20,926 nucleotides of DNA, taken from the IMG/VR virus record IMGVR_UViG_3300047440_000485, positions 1-20,926 of that record, one strand, 5' to 3'. The position numbers were made by a program, and so were the translations under genes. The notes beneath the pieces were generated by a model. It was not told where the DNA came from. It searched no databases and was given only the letters and a program-made list of their open reading frames with translations. Source of the stretch: a virus. This document shows, one piece after another, positions 3,281 to 20,862 of the stretch. Every line of letters starts with the position of its first letter. Positions within the stretch are counted from its first letter, which is position 1.

Positions 3281-4009
3281 TTATGGCGGGCCGCCGACCC
3301 ACAGCCCAGGCGTGGCCTCGCCAGCGTCCAGCACCTCGGCCACATGCTCGCCGATCAGGCCGGCAGGCAGCCTGTGCCACTGCACGCCGTGGTCCTGGCG
3401 TGCGAGCCCGGCATCGTCGAGCGCCCCGCTGTCCAGGCCCCGGTACTGCACGGCGTCGTTGAAACGCTCCGAGGTGTCGCACACGTCCAGCACCAGCAGT
3501 GTGCCCCGAGGCTTCAGGTACGACCGCGCCACGGCCAGCATCGCCGGCACGCTGTAGGCGTGGTGCAGGCTGTAGCCCAGGACGACGAGGTCCTGGCGTG
3601 GCAGCCGCGCCGCGAGGTCGGGGTCCTGCATGTCGGCCTGGATCAGCAGGCCCTGGCACAGGCAGCGCACTAGCTGCGCCTTCGATGCGTTGACCAGGGT
3701 GAAGCACAGGTCACGCCGCTGGGCCTGCCAGTACGCCTCCATGCCGCCGACGCCGCAGCCCAGGGACAGCACACGAGCGCCCAGCGGGACGTTTACACGC
3801 TGCAGCACCCTCAGGCTGTGCCGATGCTCGTCGCCCTGGGCGAGCATGAACAACTGGAAGATCGTCTGCCCACGCTCCAGCAGCCAGTCGGTGACCGAGG
3901 CAACGCGGGCGTCGTCGCTGTAGAGCGGATGGCCCTCTGGCGGCCAATTACCAGAGACGTAATGCGATGGCTCGACATCGTGGCCGTTGACCTCAACCCT
4001 GGGCTCCAT
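3281..4009 (-). CDS. Class I SAM-dependent methyltransferase
   Basis: A 242-residue protein has the Rossmann-type SAM-binding motif I VLSLGCGVGG (residues about 80-89). An acidic residue in IQADMQDPDL (about D126) follows, then the motif IV-like LVVLGYSLHHAY (141-152), and the post-motif KPRGTLLVLDV (166-176). This pattern resembles the UbiE/Methyltransf_11-type fold, which acts on small molecules or proteins. I see no DPPY/NPPY or PC motif of DNA methyltransferases, so DNA modification is not indicated. The substrate is unknown. I start it at the ATG at 4009, just downstream of the small terminase stop, because upstream residues in the same frame overlap that gene and look like shadow sequence. 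It sits between the small and large terminase genes, an unusual place for an enzyme gene. Confidence 0.8.
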   Translation of the reverse strand: MEPRVEVNGHDVEPSHYVSGNWPPEGHPLYSDDARVASVTDWLLERGQTIFQLFMLAQGDEHRHSLRVLQRVNVPLGARVLSLGCGVGGMEAYWQAQRRDLCFTLVNASKAQLVRCLCQGLLIQADMQDPDLAARLPRQDLVVLGYSLHHAYSVPAMLAVARSYLKPRGTLLVLDVCDTSERFNDAVQYRGLDSGALDDAGLARQDHGVQWHRLPAGLIGEHVAEVLDAGEATPGLWVGGPP

Positions 4010-4432: not shown

Positions 4433-4639
4433 GAACAGCCCCCGAACAGCCTGAACAGCCCGAACAGCCTGTCCGCCTATACGCGGGTCGCGTTTCGCGC
4501 GCACGCGCGCAGCCGCCCCACAATCCCTTCTTCTCCCTTGTATGGGAGACGACAGGCTGTCCTAAGCTGTTCTACCGGGCGTAGCGGCCTCCGGCCAGGG
4601 CTGTCCCAGGCTGTCCTGCAGGACTGTCCTTGGCTGTTC
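4433..4639. repeat. Two-armed oriented repeat array (GGCTGTTC / GGCTGTCC)
   Basis: The left arm has GAACAGCC at 4433-4440, 4444-4451, 4453-4460 and 4462-4469, with a weaker relative (GTACAGCC) at 4400-4407. The right arm carries the opposite orientation: GGCTGTCC at 4555-4562, 4599-4606 and 4609-4616, with variants AGCTGTTC at 4565-4572, GACTGTCC at 4622-4629 and GGCTGTTC at 4632-4639. Neighbouring copies are mostly 9-13 bp apart, close to one helical turn, so bound proteins would sit on one face of the DNA. Each arm reads GGCTGTYC toward the operon it faces. Such an array suits an iteron-type origin or a cooperative operator; which one is not shown. Confidence 0.8.
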
Positions 4640-6401: not shown

Positions 6402-6418
6402 TTTCGTTACGGAGAATT
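6402..6418 (+). promoter_or_regulatory. 17-bp repeated leader element, copy 1
   Basis: TTTCGTTACGGAGAATT lies immediately ahead of the ATG at 6421, with GGAG at ribosome-binding distance. It is identical to copy 2 at 7722-7738 and close to the GGGAGATT form at 9915, 12736 and 20834. Confidence 0.75.
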
Positions 6419-7721: not shown

Positions 7722-7738
7722 TTTCGTTACGGAGAATT
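7722..7738 (+). promoter_or_regulatory. 17-bp repeated leader element, copy 2
   Basis: TTTCGTTACGGAGAATT is identical to copy 1 and lies 6 bases ahead of the ATG at 7745. A second purine run (AGGAAA) follows it, so either could serve as the ribosome-binding site. Confidence 0.75.
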
Positions 7739-9748: not shown

Positions 9749-9951
9749 TGGCCGCCGAGGACTGGTTCGACGAGTACGACTTCGACCTCGACCACGATGG
9801 CGAGCCCTTCATCGCCCGGCGCGAGCGAGCCCGGCTAAGGCTCGCCGAATTCAGCGCCTTCCTGGCCCGACTCAAGGCCGGCAAGGCCAAGCCCCGGGCT
9901 TCGGCCCAGGCCCATTTCGTTACGGGAGATTGCAATGAAGAAGGACCTTAA
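9748..9951 (+). CDS. Unrecognised small acidic/basic protein, 67 aa
   Basis: The N-terminus is highly acidic (AAEDWFDEYDFDLDHDGEPF) and the rest is a basic helix (RRERARLRLAEFSAFLARLK). The last 13 codons contain leader element copy 3, so the C-terminal HFVTGDC residues are dictated by a regulatory sequence serving the next gene. The 3' end overlaps the next start by 17 bases. No family recognised. Confidence 0.65.
   Translation: MAAEDWFDEYDFDLDHDGEPFIARRERARLRLAEFSAFLARLKAGKAKPRASAQAHFVTGDCNEEGP
9915..9931 (+). promoter_or_regulatory. 17-bp repeated leader element, copy 3 (inside a gene)
   Basis: TTTCGTTACGGGAGATT sits within the 3' end of the gene at 9748 and 3 bases ahead of the ATG at 9935. 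A short UUCG hairpin (GGGC-TTCG-GCCC, 9896-9907) lies just upstream. GGGAG provides the ribosome-binding site. Confidence 0.75.
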
Positions 9952-12738: not shown

Positions 12739-12752
12739 CGTTACGGGAGATT
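12736..12752 (+). promoter_or_regulatory. 17-bp repeated leader element, copy 4
   Basis: TTTCGTTACGGGAGATT directly follows the terminator stem and precedes the TTG start of the polymerase by 4 bases. GGGAG (12745-12749) is at good Shine-Dalgarno distance, which supports the TTG. Confidence 0.78.
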
Positions 12753-17503: not shown

Positions 17504-18907
17504 ATGCAGTACAACCCGCTCCCGTTCCAGCAGAAGGCGATCTCCCTGGTCTGCGAGAAGCCTGGGTCCGCCCTCCTCCTCGACCCGGGCATGGGCAAGA
17601 CGGCCATCACCCTGGCCGCCCACTGCGTGCTGCAGCACCACCAGATGATCAAGGCCACCCTGGTCATCGTGCCGATCCGGCCGATGTACCTGACGTGGCC
17701 CAACGAGATCAAGAAGTGGGAGCAGTTCAGCCACCTCAAGGTGTCGATCATCCACGGCACGGCCGCCCAGCGCTTCGCCGCCATCGAGGCCAAGGCCGAC
17801 ATCTACCTCATCAACCCGGAGAACACCGAGTGGCTGACCATCGCCCTGGCCGGCAGCCTCGACCGCTTCGGCACCACCCCCGGGCTCCTGGCGGTCGACG
17901 AGTCGACCCGGTTCAAGAACGGCCAGAGCAAGCGCTTCAAGGCCCTGAAGACGATCCTGCCGTTGTTCCCCCGCCGCACGATCCTGACCGGCACCCCGGC
18001 CCCGCAGAGCATCGAGGACCTGTTCGCCCAGATGAACATCGTCGATGACGGCAAGCGCCTGGGCCGCTACATCACCCACTTCCGCAAGCTGTTCATGTAC
18101 TCGACGCCGCTCCGCATCGGCGGCGGCCGGACCATCGACGAGTGGCATGTCCGGCCGGGCGGTGCCCACATGGTCGCCGAGGCCATCAAGGATGTCGCCC
18201 TCAGGCTCCAGGCCGAGGACTACCTGACGATGCCGGCGATCTCGTACAACGTCATCCCGGTCGAGCTTCCCAAGGCTGTACGCTCGGTCTACAAGTCGAT
18301 GGCCGACGATCTCGTGGCCGCTGTCGGCGACCAGAAGATCACGGCCGTGACGGCAGCCGCCGCGACGATGAAGCTGCGCCAGATCACCAATGGCTGGGCC
18401 TACAGCGAGGATGGCTCGGTCAAGGTCCACGATGCCAAGCTCGACGCCCTGGCCGACCTCGTCGAGGAGCAGCAGGGCACGCCGCTGCTGGTGGCCGTCG
18501 CCTTCCTGCACGAGGTGCCGGCGATCCGCGAGGCCCTCAAGAACGTGCTGCCCAAGGGCACCCCGATCCCCTACCTGGGAGGCGGTGTCGCCCGCCACAT
18601 CGCCGACGACATCGTCAGCGAGTGGAACGAGGGCAAGCTCCCGGTCCTGCTGGCCCACCCGACCTCGGTCGCCCACGGGCTCAACCTCCAGGCCGGCGGG
18701 CACGCTGTCTGCTGGTTCGGCCTGACATGGAACCTTGAGGAACACATCCAGTTGAACGCCCGGGTGTACCGCCAGGGTCAAACCAAGCCTGTGGTGATAC
18801 ATTACCTGACCGCAAAGGACACGGTCGACGAGAGCATCGCCAAGGCGCTCGTCGACAAGTCCGATCTGCAATCCGCAATCCTTAATCGTCTCAAGGGAAC
18901 GAAATGA
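17504..18907 (+). CDS. SNF2-like superfamily 2 helicase, 467 aa
   Basis: The motifs run in SF2/SNF2 order. Walker A is DPGMGKT (residues 27-33). The DEAx-type motif II is AVDEST (DEST 132-135). Motif III is ILTGTPAPQSIEDL (about 160-173). In the C-terminal lobe, AHPTSVAHGLNLQAG and QLNARVYRQGQTKPV are motifs V and VI, with arginine-finger residues. It is close to the phage DEAD/SNF2 proteins that regularly follow VRR-NUC genes in replication modules. These are presumed to remodel DNA or remove proteins from it. It overlaps the next gene by ATGA. Confidence 0.93.
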   Translation: MQYNPLPFQQKAISLVCEKPGSALLLDPGMGKTAITLAAHCVLQHHQMIKATLVIVPIRPMYLTWPNEIKKWEQFSHLKVSIIHGTAAQRFAAIEAKADIYLINPENTEWLTIALAGSLDRFGTTPGLLAVDESTRFKNGQSKRFKALKTILPLFPRRTILTGTPAPQSIEDLFAQMNIVDDGKRLGRYITHFRKLFMYSTPLRIGGGRTIDEWHVRPGGAHMVAEAIKDVALRLQAEDYLTMPAISYNVIPVELPKAVRSVYKSMADDLVAAVGDQKITAVTAAAATMKLRQITNGWAYSEDGSVKVHDAKLDALADLVEEQQGTPLLVAVAFLHEVPAIREALKNVLPKGTPIPYLGGGVARHIADDIVSEWNEGKLPVLLAHPTSVAHGLNLQAGGHAVCWFGLTWNLEEHIQLNARVYRQGQTKPVVIHYLTAKDTVDESIAKALVDKSDLQSAILNRLKGTK

Positions 18908-19221
18908 GAAAACTGAAAGCGCCGGCCAGCCGGCCCGAAGGGTCACGCCTCGTCATCGTCAAGCTGCCGCGCGAGATGCCGGACGGCAAGACAACGACCA
19001 CGCACCCGCTGCTCTGGCTGATCCGCGAGCGCCTGGGCGAGGATAGGAACAAGTCCGACCTTGCGCGCGACATGGGCGTCCGCCCACAATCGCTCTACAA
19101 GTGGGAGCGGCTGTGCAAGGCTGACCGCAACTTCCCGCTGCCGGCACCCCGTGCCTTGCAGATCGCCAAGTTTTTCGGGGTCAAGCCGACCCTGCTGCGT
19201 CCCGATCTCTTTGGAGCCTGA
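18904..19221 (+). CDS. YdaS/Cro-like HTH DNA-binding protein, 105 aa
   Basis: The start overlaps the helicase stop (ATGA). After a basic N-terminal 40 residues, the core is a helix-turn-helix (NKSDLARDMGVRPQSLYKWE, about residues 53-72). It is followed by APRALQIAKFFGVKPTLLRP and then DLFG. The ending is the LRPD(L/I)F signature of YdaS/Cro-like regulators, which bind operators as small dimers. At the end of the replication cluster it may regulate the early operon. The two inverted-repeat promoter classes upstream are candidate targets; no binding is shown. Confidence 0.85.
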   Translation: MRKLKAPASRPEGSRLVIVKLPREMPDGKTTTTHPLLWLIRERLGEDRNKSDLARDMGVRPQSLYKWERLCKADRNFPLPAPRALQIAKFFGVKPTLLRPDLFGA

Positions 19222-19225
19222 GAGC

Positions 19226-19477
19226 ATGCCCGCACCGACCCAGTCCTACCCGATCTCGTTCGACGAGCCCGAGATGAACCTCGTCCTGCAGGGCCTGGGC
19301 AAGCTCCCTGCAGAGCGGAGCTTCATGCTCCTGCAGCGCCTGGGCAGCGAGATCGCCGAGATCAACCGCCGGGCGCAGGAGCCCCCCATGCCGCCCGCCC
19401 CCGTGAACACGGGGGGCAGCGACAACGCTGCAGCCCTGGGCATCGGCGGCGGCGAGGTCCACAATTCCCTCAACTAG
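19226..19477 (+). CDS. Small conserved-looking phage protein, 83 aa
   Basis: The start ATG is 4 bases after the HTH stop, with GGAG at 19212-19215. The N-terminal half has the conserved-looking helix-loop-helix EPEMNLVLQGLGKLPAERSF followed by LLQRLGSEIAEI. This resembles small phage proteins I know only as uncharacterised. The C-terminal half is disordered and Pro/Gly-rich. Function unknown. It separates the replication genes from the PEP-CTERM genes. Confidence 0.7.
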   Translation: MPAPTQSYPISFDEPEMNLVLQGLGKLPAERSFMLLQRLGSEIAEINRRAQEPPMPPAPVNTGGSDNAAALGIGGGEVHNSLN

Positions 19478-19485
19478 GAGTGTCC

Positions 19486-20133
19486 ATGAAGCAAGCCCTT
19501 CTCGCCCTCGCCCTCACCGCCGCCTCGCTGGGCGCTAACGCAGGGATCGTTGGCTTCGCCAACGAATTCAGCGGTGGCGTCAAGTGCGCCAACCTCGTCA
19601 CCGGCTGCGCGGAGTTGGAGACGACCGCCATTGCCGGCGGGGTCCACTTCGTCCTGCAGGGCACGATGACCGGCACGGAATTCATCACCGGCCTCTACGG
19701 CAACATCGGCCCCTACAGCGGCGTGACGGTGGCTAACCTCACGGGTGCCACCAACACCATCGGCGGCGGGTTCAGCTTCGCGCCGGACACGTTCAAGGCC
19801 GATGGCGATGGGTTCTTCGACTGGAACCTCGACCTGTCCAGCAACCCGCCCCGCTTCAGCGGCACCGACACGCTGTCGTGGGACTTCCTCGGCATCACCC
19901 TGGCCCAGACCAACGACATCAGCGTCAACGGCCCGGTCGGCAAGACCGGGTTCCAGTACGCCATCCATGCCCAGGGCCTCGTGAACGGTGGCAGCGGCTG
20001 GGACAGCCAGACAGGCTGCCCTGACTGCTCCATCACCCCGGTCATCGCGGTACCGGAGCCGGGCACGGTCAGCCTCATGGTTGCGGGACTGGCTGCCCTG
20101 GGCATCAGCCGCCGCCGCCGCCAGGACAAGTAG
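19486..20133 (+). CDS. PEP-CTERM sorting domain protein, 215 aa
   Basis: An N-terminal signal peptide (MKQALLALALTAASLGANAG, cleavage likely after ANA) is followed by a beta-rich, Gly/Thr/Asn-rich exported domain. The C-terminus carries a complete PEP-CTERM signal: AVPEPGTVSLMVAGLAALGI followed by SRRRRQDK. In PEP-CTERM/exosortase systems the host exosortase (EpsH/XrtA type) cleaves near the PEP motif during transit to the outer surface, and the system is linked to exopolysaccharide. Cysteines occur as C-x6-C near the N-terminus and CPDC before the signal, so disulfides are likely. The start is the ATG 5 bases after AGGAG. The mature domain is unrecognised. Confidence 0.88.
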   Translation: MKQALLALALTAASLGANAGIVGFANEFSGGVKCANLVTGCAELETTAIAGGVHFVLQGTMTGTEFITGLYGNIGPYSGVTVANLTGATNTIGGGFSFAPDTFKADGDGFFDWNLDLSSNPPRFSGTDTLSWDFLGITLAQTNDISVNGPVGKTGFQYAIHAQGLVNGGSGWDSQTGCPDCSITPVIAVPEPGTVSLMVAGLAALGISRRRRQDK

Positions 20134-20142
20134 CGGGGTCTT

Positions 20143-20166
20143 CCCAGGCACCTCTTTAAGCCTGGG
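20143..20166. repeat. Inverted repeat between the PEP-CTERM genes
   Basis: CCCAGGC (20143-20149) and GCCTGGG (20160-20166) form a 7-bp stem with a 10-base A/T-rich loop, directly ahead of the Shine-Dalgarno AAGGAGAA of the second gene. No T-run follows, so it is more likely an mRNA-stability hairpin or operator than a terminator. Confidence 0.55.
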
Positions 20167-20185
20167 TGTTCTAAGGAGAATCGAC

Positions 20186-20794
20186 ATGCGGAAATCTTTG
20201 TGGGCGCTGGTCCTGGCGGCAATCGCCCTGCCGGCCAGCGCGGTAGGCAGCGTCATCTGCGATAGCTGCGACTACATCAACGGTCAGGTGGCGACCAACC
20301 TGGGGCTGTACAACCCGACGCACTTCGACAACGGCACGTTCAGCAACGCCACCACGGGGCAGAACGGCAACTTCGACAACTTCTGGGTCTTCAGCATCAA
20401 CCCGGCCGGCAACACGGCCATCAACGCGATCTTCCAGCCGGTCAACAACATCAGCAACTTCGATGTCAAGCTGTTCGGCGTGACGAGCGACATCTGTGCC
20501 GCGAACACCGGCACCGCTGGCGGACTCTGCACGGCGTTGACGCTGGGGGCGCTGCTCGACGACCCGGGATCGAACCCCAACTTCGTCTCCAACATCAACT
20601 TCCAGACGCTGAACGCGGGGGTCTATGCCTTTGAAGTCTCGGGGACCATCTCGGGTCTGGTGGCGGGGCAGCCGGCCTCGTACACCGGCAACCTGCAGGT
20701 CACCCCGGTGCCCGAGCCCGAGACGTACACCCTGGTCCTCGCCGGCCTGGGCGTCATGGGCGTGGTTGCCCGCCGCCGCAAACGCGAAGATTAG
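20186..20794 (+). CDS. PEP-CTERM sorting domain protein, 202 aa (second)
   Basis: A signal peptide (MRKSLWALVLAAIALPASAV, cleavage likely after ASA) precedes an exported domain with a CDSC knuckle just after the cleavage site and a second Cys pair in the middle. The domain has NFDNFWVFSINPAG, then GVYAFEVSGTISGLV and ASYTGNLQVTPV. This resembles the repeating layout of FxDxA-type PEP-CTERM proteins of betaproteobacteria. The C-terminus PVPEPETYTLVLAGLGVMGV plus ARRRKRED is a textbook PEP-CTERM signal. AAGGAGAA precedes the start. It differs in sequence from the first PEP-CTERM gene, so the two look like separately acquired or long-diverged genes, not a recent duplication. Confidence 0.9.
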   Translation: MRKSLWALVLAAIALPASAVGSVICDSCDYINGQVATNLGLYNPTHFDNGTFSNATTGQNGNFDNFWVFSINPAGNTAINAIFQPVNNISNFDVKLFGVTSDICAANTGTAGGLCTALTLGALLDDPGSNPNFVSNINFQTLNAGVYAFEVSGTISGLVAGQPASYTGNLQVTPVPEPETYTLVLAGLGVMGVVARRRKRED

Positions 20795-20814: not shown

Positions 20815-20836
20815 GGCCCGCTTCGGCGGGCCTTTT
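20815..20836 (+). terminator. Rho-independent terminator after the PEP-CTERM genes
   Basis: GGCCCGC (20815-20821) and GCGGGCC (20826-20832) pair perfectly around a UUCG tetraloop and are followed by TTTT. As at 12711, the T-run merges with a copy of the 17-bp leader element. Confidence 0.88.
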
Positions 20837-20850
20837 CGTTACGGGAGATT
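20834..20850 (+). promoter_or_regulatory. 17-bp repeated leader element, copy 5
   Basis: TTTCGTTACGGGAGATT follows the terminator. It is followed at once by GTGTTTAAAC; a rightward frame opens at that GTG (20851) and is still open at the window edge, so this copy may lead another gene. The Shine-Dalgarno to GTG distance is unusually short. Confidence 0.7.
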
Positions 20851-20862
20851 GTGTTTAAACGC

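Follow-up and report, generated by a model that had tools for sequence, protein, structure and literature searches.

Two adjacent genes near the right end of the analysed stretch of DNA, an IMG/VR record of 20,926 bases (hereafter the window), were found to be phage genes whose products, P1 and P2, are very probably exosortase substrates made for the envelope of the host. Their best explanation, to which we assign a probability of roughly 0.45, is that they are early, host-derived envelope proteins displayed on the infected cell, where they would probably act in superinfection exclusion in the manner of the Llp protein of phage T5. A sequence-only reading of the window had pointed to two neighbouring genes, each with a signal peptide and a PEP-CTERM tag, lying behind phage replication genes and ahead of a terminator fused to a repeated leader; both the pair and its position were upheld, the former by exact coordinates and by tags scoring above curated cut-offs, the latter by profile matches and by the sequence itself.

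The left part of the window encodes the portal and large terminase proteins on the minus strand, the portal protein of this phage group resembling that of Myxococcus phage Mx8. Adjoining these packaging genes is a gene for a methyltransferase-fold protein (3281-4009, minus strand; PF13489, 31.7 bits against a cut-off of 27), which was 57-58% identical in relatives. Early genes occupy the plus strand from approximately 4.7 kb, and encode DUF2800/PD-(D/E)XK, PolA, a VapE-type primase, an SNF2 helicase and a helix-turn-helix (HTH) protein, followed by P1 and P2. The SNF2-type helicase (17504..18907, plus strand; PF00176, 63 bits) is the last large replication gene and provides a conserved anchor upstream of the slot in which the pair resides, being 71-86% identical in 26 related lineage records, the near-identical record G001 not counted. 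It is followed by a gene for a small HTH protein (18904..19221, plus strand), which matched HTH_Tnp_1/HTH_3 near the cut-off as well as phage repressor-type PHROGs, and which also precedes the slot in the lineage relatives that were read. Directly before the slot lies a gene encoding an 83-aa protein (19226..19477, plus strand), 45-64% identical in relatives, for which family-profile and PHROG searches returned no family match. P1 (215 aa; 19486..20133, plus strand) starts with an ATG at 19486, only 8 bases past the preceding stop codon, and has its own stop at 20133, and P2 (202 aa; 20186..20794, plus strand) starts 52 bases past P1; by inspection, each gene has a ribosome-binding site.

The early operon is closed by an intrinsic terminator (20815..20832, plus strand) with seven G-C pairs, a TTCG loop and a T run, which runs into a copy of the repeated leader, GTTACGGGAGATTG (20838..20851, plus strand). 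Elsewhere in the window this sequence was found exactly at 9919, with one mismatch at 12740 and with three mismatches at 6406 (0.83 expected by chance). The element, centred around TTTCGTTACGGGAGATTG, precedes early genes at 6406, 9919, 12740 and 20838 on the plus strand, and a related copy is present near 7727; among 87 loci, exact copies were confined to this phage and G001, and the element may serve as a promoter, or in processing or translation, specifically in this phage. A further feature read in the sequence is an inverted repeat, CCCAGGC-10-GCCTGGG, in the leader of P2 between P1 and P2 (20143..20166, plus strand). Its right arm and part of its loop (ACCTCTTTAAGCCTGGG) also occur in locus L014, at approximately 4549-4566; the repeat may therefore travel with P2, which it precedes there as well although the gene order is reversed.

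PEP-CTERM proteins are exported by a signal peptide, held by a C-terminal helix and processed by exosortase. Both P1 and P2 exceeded the cut-offs of the two models for this tag, with 25.1 and 20.4 bits, respectively, against TIGR02595 (cut-off 16), and 28.9 and 36.7 bits against PF07589 (cut-off 20.7). The tag of P1 (20050..20121, plus strand) consists of VPEP, a hydrophobic helix and SRRRR, and that of P2 (20708..20785, plus strand) of VPEP, a hydrophobic helix and ARRRK; in each case it forms the extreme C-terminus, at about residues 189-212 of 215 in P1 and 175-200 of 202 in P2, and the C-terminal helix is present in the predicted models of both proteins. Inspection of the N-termini revealed signal-peptide-like sequences at approximately residues 1-19, with a charged start, a hydrophobic stretch and an AxA site (ANA/GIV in P1, ASA/VGS in P2), and a lipobox cysteine was absent from both. 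When 11 P1 and 10 P2 phage proteins were aligned, signal peptide, mature domain and PEP...RR pattern were all seen to be retained, with PEP itself invariant.

The two proteins differ in how far they can be classified. P2 belongs to the FxDxF family of PEP-CTERM proteins, having matched NF038126 with 75.1 bits over residues 44-198 (cut-off 50), and P1 scored 25 bits against this model, below the cut-off and in the tag region only, and was assigned to no named family. Against NF033554, the family of the flocculation protein PepA, P1 and P2 scored 18.6 and 31.2 bits, well under the cut-off of 80. A beta-sandwich was predicted for each protein, spanning approximately residues 42-163 in P1. The P1 model had no significant match in the PDB or among viral models; its best Foldseek rows, which were not significant, were mostly carbohydrate-binding modules (E 0.03), and its best VIA-align rows were adaptor or chitin-binding beta-sandwiches (Z no higher than 7.9). 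The P2 model resembled beta-sandwiches of the collagen-binding, pre-peptidase C-terminal and enterotoxin-binding types (Z of about 9 over approximately 105 residues, at 10-13% identity). No toxin relationship is read into this likeness, which is taken to reflect a fold common to binding domains.

The pair ends just 132 bases short of the right end of the 20,926-base record, the window DNA had no match among GenBank phage records, and no relatives of P1 or P2 were retrieved from 50,697 such records, so that a chimeric assembly, or host DNA lying beside a prophage, had to be considered. We give such an artefact next to no credence and rejected it, since the same order recurred in the near-identical G001, among relatives that close and across several phage backbones. 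Gene by gene, G001 was 97-100% identical to the window across their overlap, and did not stop at the pair: it went on with a 65-aa gene and with genes for a tail fibre (phrog_18345), for virion proteins and for the major head protein, phrog_9953. G002 (39.8 kb) carries an exact 127-nt end repeat, and its genome therefore closes; P1 and P2 occupy the same junction as in the window, and beyond them lie virion genes. G010, with a 126-nt end repeat, carries P1 only, again internally and with virion genes beyond it, and in G017 an overlap of the sequence with itself extends over 664 nt (92%). That the genes are host DNA lying past an attachment site is likewise contradicted by the internal position of these genes in G002 and G010 and by their presence in related phages, and bacterial relatives in a genome-contig scan were only 29-35% identical. 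The third-position codon G+C of P1 and P2 (0.90-0.91) matched that of the phage replication genes (0.90-0.93). The sequence-only reading had proposed looking for structural genes in the rest of the genome and for relatives in other phages: the former were located in G001, as tail, virion and major head genes, and the latter in about 20 other virus records, and its attribution of the pair to the phage thus stands. Genes outside the window were called with a simple codon-model script, and the virus records may be fragments.

Successive viral-contig scans retrieved 16 and then 22 P1 loci, together with 22 P2 loci that lay largely on the same contigs, P2 matches covering the tag alone not being counted as relatives. 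In total, relatives of P1 and/or P2 at 52-61% identity were present in about 20 other virus records, which is more than chance would provide, and in at least four phage backbones, told apart by comparison with every window gene; the expectation that the genes would be conserved in related phages was thereby confirmed. Backbone A comprises the window, G001, G002, G017, G006, L067, L014 and L010. Backbone A' (G010 and G016) has a capsid 63-64% identical to that of A, mostly different replication genes and P1 only. A third backbone, L068, has its own replication genes and the order P2-P1, and backbone B (G011, G013 and G014) has unrelated virion genes and carries P2-P1 inside the replication operon. 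In a P1 tree the bacterial relatives fell outside a single clade (100/100) that united all phage copies; within it, a supported group (99/97) had the A' copies nested among A copies, and support was weaker (82/82) for the position of the B copies beside an A copy. Since other backbones nest within the phage clade of P1, exchange between phages is the simplest reading.

Two further observations were made in these records. The P1 copy at L009:3884-4525, from a phage of 59% G+C, contains one in-frame TAG after residue 72 (FITSLYGN*TGAV), either a natural disruption or a read-through; reading TAG through across the L009 contig did not clearly indicate recoding. Genes for hydrophobic membrane proteins of 60-65 aa were also encountered (L035:16506-16694, and similar genes in L038, L041, L045 and L068). 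These share a conserved central P-rich stretch (such as IPMPP or VPLPAP), occur in all backbones seen and lie mostly in the virion gene block; the one tested had no PHROG match, and a holin or a virion membrane protein is a possible identity.

In the lineage of the window, the slot separates the early operon from the tail-fibre end, with the tail-fibre gene adjoining. Slots were read by utilizing the helicase as an anchor in relatives of 71-86% identity and recording what lay past the block of helicase, HTH gene and small gene. The order P1-P2 was found in the window and G001, in G002, in the L091 group and in L094, and the reverse order in L014; L095 carried P1 alone, and in L010 and L071 P1 was cut by the contig end. 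Other slots contained P3, a third kind of PEP-CTERM protein with 273-277 aa and a tag above the cut-off (L096, the L102 group and the L105 group), or, in L098, an exosortase-dependent surface protein of the Npun_F0296 type (36.8 bits, cut-off 29) that was truncated where the contig stops. In three, the occupant was a secreted, tag-less protein of about 210 aa (L103:8095-8721, L104:5485-6123 and L108:8106-8735), and the slot of L109 was empty. The tag-less proteins are rich in Ser, Thr, Ala and Gly, and the two tested had no family match.

The flanks of the slot are hence conserved and its contents vary, with a signal peptide in nearly every occupant and an exosortase-type protein in approximately 12 of the 16 distinct readable slots. 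The helicases of L095 and L096 are 99% identical (dS 0.045), yet these phages carry P1 and P3, respectively, indicating recent replacement and thus a slot that swaps. The earlier picture of a fixed two-gene unit accordingly requires amendment: the pair does stand at the end of the early operon, but the locus is a swap slot with varying contents. In close pairs, dN/dS was 0.21-0.57 for P1, 0.16-0.46 for P2 and 0.11-0.34 for the helicase; with values of 0.16-0.57, P1 and P2 are under purifying selection, and mostly evolve faster than the helicase. The type of slot did not consistently track the tail-fibre C-terminus on eight sequences, L091 having P1-P2 together with a divergent fibre end. In a wider set of 50 records, mostly picked by capsid similarity and including some fragments, PEP-CTERM proteins were found in 5, all nearer relatives; the trait therefore belongs to part of the wider group and is not universal.

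Neither the window nor 23 related records encoded an exosortase (PF09721), in agreement with what had been said of the window alone, and the model was positive in a control, the Nitrosomonas genome of L060; since the phage records encode no such enzyme, that of the host would have to act. A tyrosine integrase (PF00589) was detected in 0/16 records and in 14/14 control genomes, suggesting that these phages are probably lytic; the prophage or temperate reading was rejected on this ground, and the earlier suggestion that the proteins might be displayed on lysogenic cells found no support.

Bacterial relatives of P1 were recovered from Planctomycetota, Verrucomicrobiota, Nitrosomonas and others by the genome-contig scan; they mostly have PEP-CTERM-like ends, and have E65 and the greater part of the FKADGDG motif in common with P1. 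As identities did not exceed the 29-35% given above, a close bacterial source of P1 was rejected. For P2, no close chromosomal homologue was identified in 399 genomes of the order of Nitrosomonas, the best match scoring 49 bits and most covering the tag only. The best P1 match among the 399 sampled genomes of this order (E 7e-18) came from G360, in which P1-like and P2-like genes are adjacent and in the order of the window (L229:7520-10818, contig 99). This pair lies in a sugar-nucleotide gene cluster, flanked by what we take, from the sequence, to be dTDP-rhamnose synthesis genes and an NDP-sugar nucleotidyltransferase gene; the phage pair thus probably descends from a host pair of this kind, tied to surface sugars. 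A search for the host by capsid homology yielded one genome of the same order (51% capsid match); this genome had no PEP-CTERM match, and is therefore uninformative about the host of the present phage.

Taken as host-derived cargo in a swap slot that ends the early operon of probably lytic tailed phages, P1 and P2 may act as follows. We infer from operon position that they would be co-transcribed with the replication genes early in infection, and likewise infer exosortase processing, surface location and a function in exclusion. The signal peptides would export them through the inner membrane, where the C-terminal helix would hold them until the host's own exosortase cut them and passed them on, to be placed in the outer envelope or the extracellular polymer layer of the infected cell. 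There the displayed beta-sandwich domains would most likely shield or alter a receptor or the exopolysaccharide layer, by which superinfection by the same or competing phages would be excluded and progeny spared adsorption to infected cells and debris, as with Llp of T5. Exclusion is suggested because an early, exported, fast-swapped protein beside a tail-fibre gene follows the pattern of superinfection exclusion, and the position of the slot would parallel that of the Llp gene next to the gene for the receptor-binding protein. Counting against it are the inconsistent relationship of slot type to fibre end (L091), the remoteness from the tail fibre of the backbone B pair, which sits within the replication operon, and the generic nature of the predicted beta-sandwich folds, with no significant match for P1.

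The main alternative, which we regard as possible but unlikely, is that P1 and P2 would change the balance of bound and released polymer, or flocculation, of the infected cell and thereby help progeny to spread or to get to neighbouring cells, rather than block a receptor. It holds this rank because bacterial PepA controls bound polymer and flocs; PEP-CTERM proteins of bacteria have been tied to exopolysaccharide, for example PepA of Aquincola tertiaricarbonis (PMC9850573), and the chromosomal pair most like P1-P2 sits in a sugar-nucleotide cluster. Taken on their own, the tags would be just as compatible with a role in exopolysaccharide or aggregation, and the predicted all-beta, binding-type folds are consistent with either reading. 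The carbohydrate-binding modules that dominate the weak structural matches of P1 would favour an effect on polymer, but these matches are not significant, both proteins fall well under the PepA cut-off, and rapid swapping of unrelated surface proteins better suits exclusion or an arms race.

It is also conceivable, although quite improbable, that the tag does the work and the domains are secondary. The proteins would then be decoy substrates that keep the host exosortase busy and so deprive the cell of sorted surface proteins of its own, some of which may be phage receptors. The tag is indeed the common feature of several unrelated domains that use the slot; the mature domains of P1 and P2 are nonetheless conserved and under purifying selection, and three slots hold secreted proteins that lack it. 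A place in the virion or in lysis, for instance a spanin-like envelope function, appears very doubtful. A signal peptide combined with a C-terminal membrane helix recalls envelope-spanning lysis proteins, and no convincing endolysin or spanin was found among the lineage genes scanned, in which one virion-block protein had a match to an amidase-labelled PHROG and none to a Pfam family. P1 and P2, however, are encoded on the early strand behind the replication genes and apart from the late genes, and relatives with an empty or otherwise filled slot lack them.

The preferred reading, display for exclusion, suggests that these phages give infected cells a new surface, which if true would be a phage counterpart of surface-antigen switching. 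Somewhat short of an even chance is also given to its wider form, that unrelated lytic lineages share fast-swapping exosortase substrates that redecorate the infected cell via host sorting, an undescribed route to exclusion or receptor masking and the first known viral use of exosortase. If P1 and P2 are displayed, phages would reshape the envelope and polymer layer of exosortase-using bacteria, including floc- and biofilm-formers, and the slot would amount to a ready-made list of proteins with a part in competition among phages and between phages and their hosts. Its occupants, compact natural modules presumably selected for an effect at the cell surface, also offer a genetic handle on the poorly known function of PEP-CTERM proteins.

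A full-text literature search, covering few subscription journals, returned no description of phage-encoded PEP-CTERM proteins, and in the papers inspected PEP-CTERM or exosortase and phage were paired in unrelated contexts; this agrees with the earlier reading, which knew of no described phage system of this kind. The tag and the family of P2 were already known, and what seems new is that phages carry them systematically in a swap slot. With the proteins of the exosortase systems (EpsH, XrtA) of Gram-negative bacteria, P1 and P2 share a signal peptide and a PEP-helix-Arg tag at the extreme C-terminus, but are encoded by phages that lack an exosortase. PepA of Zoogloea and Aquincola has the same type of tag and general architecture, and that of A. 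tertiaricarbonis raises bound polymer and restores flocs (PMC9850573); its genes are chromosomal, however, and P1 and P2 fail its family cut-off of 80. The P22-type lysogenic conversion and exclusion genes gtrABC and sieA are carried by phages as cargo and modify or protect the envelope of the host (PMC10883804). They act in lysogens; P1 and P2 resemble them as cargo for the envelope, but come from phages in which 16 records gave no tyrosine integrase. The best studied superinfection-exclusion protein is Llp of T5, which is early, encoded beside the receptor-binding protein gene and blocks FhuA (PMC9586334). Llp and Cor of T1/phi80 are, like P1 and P2, small exported phage proteins, and Llp is made early in lytic infection; they are lipoproteins, whereas P1 and P2 have no lipobox and instead combine an exosortase tag with a predicted beta-sandwich in about 200 aa, so that the two kinds of protein may at most work alike, P1 and P2 not being members of the Llp/Cor group.
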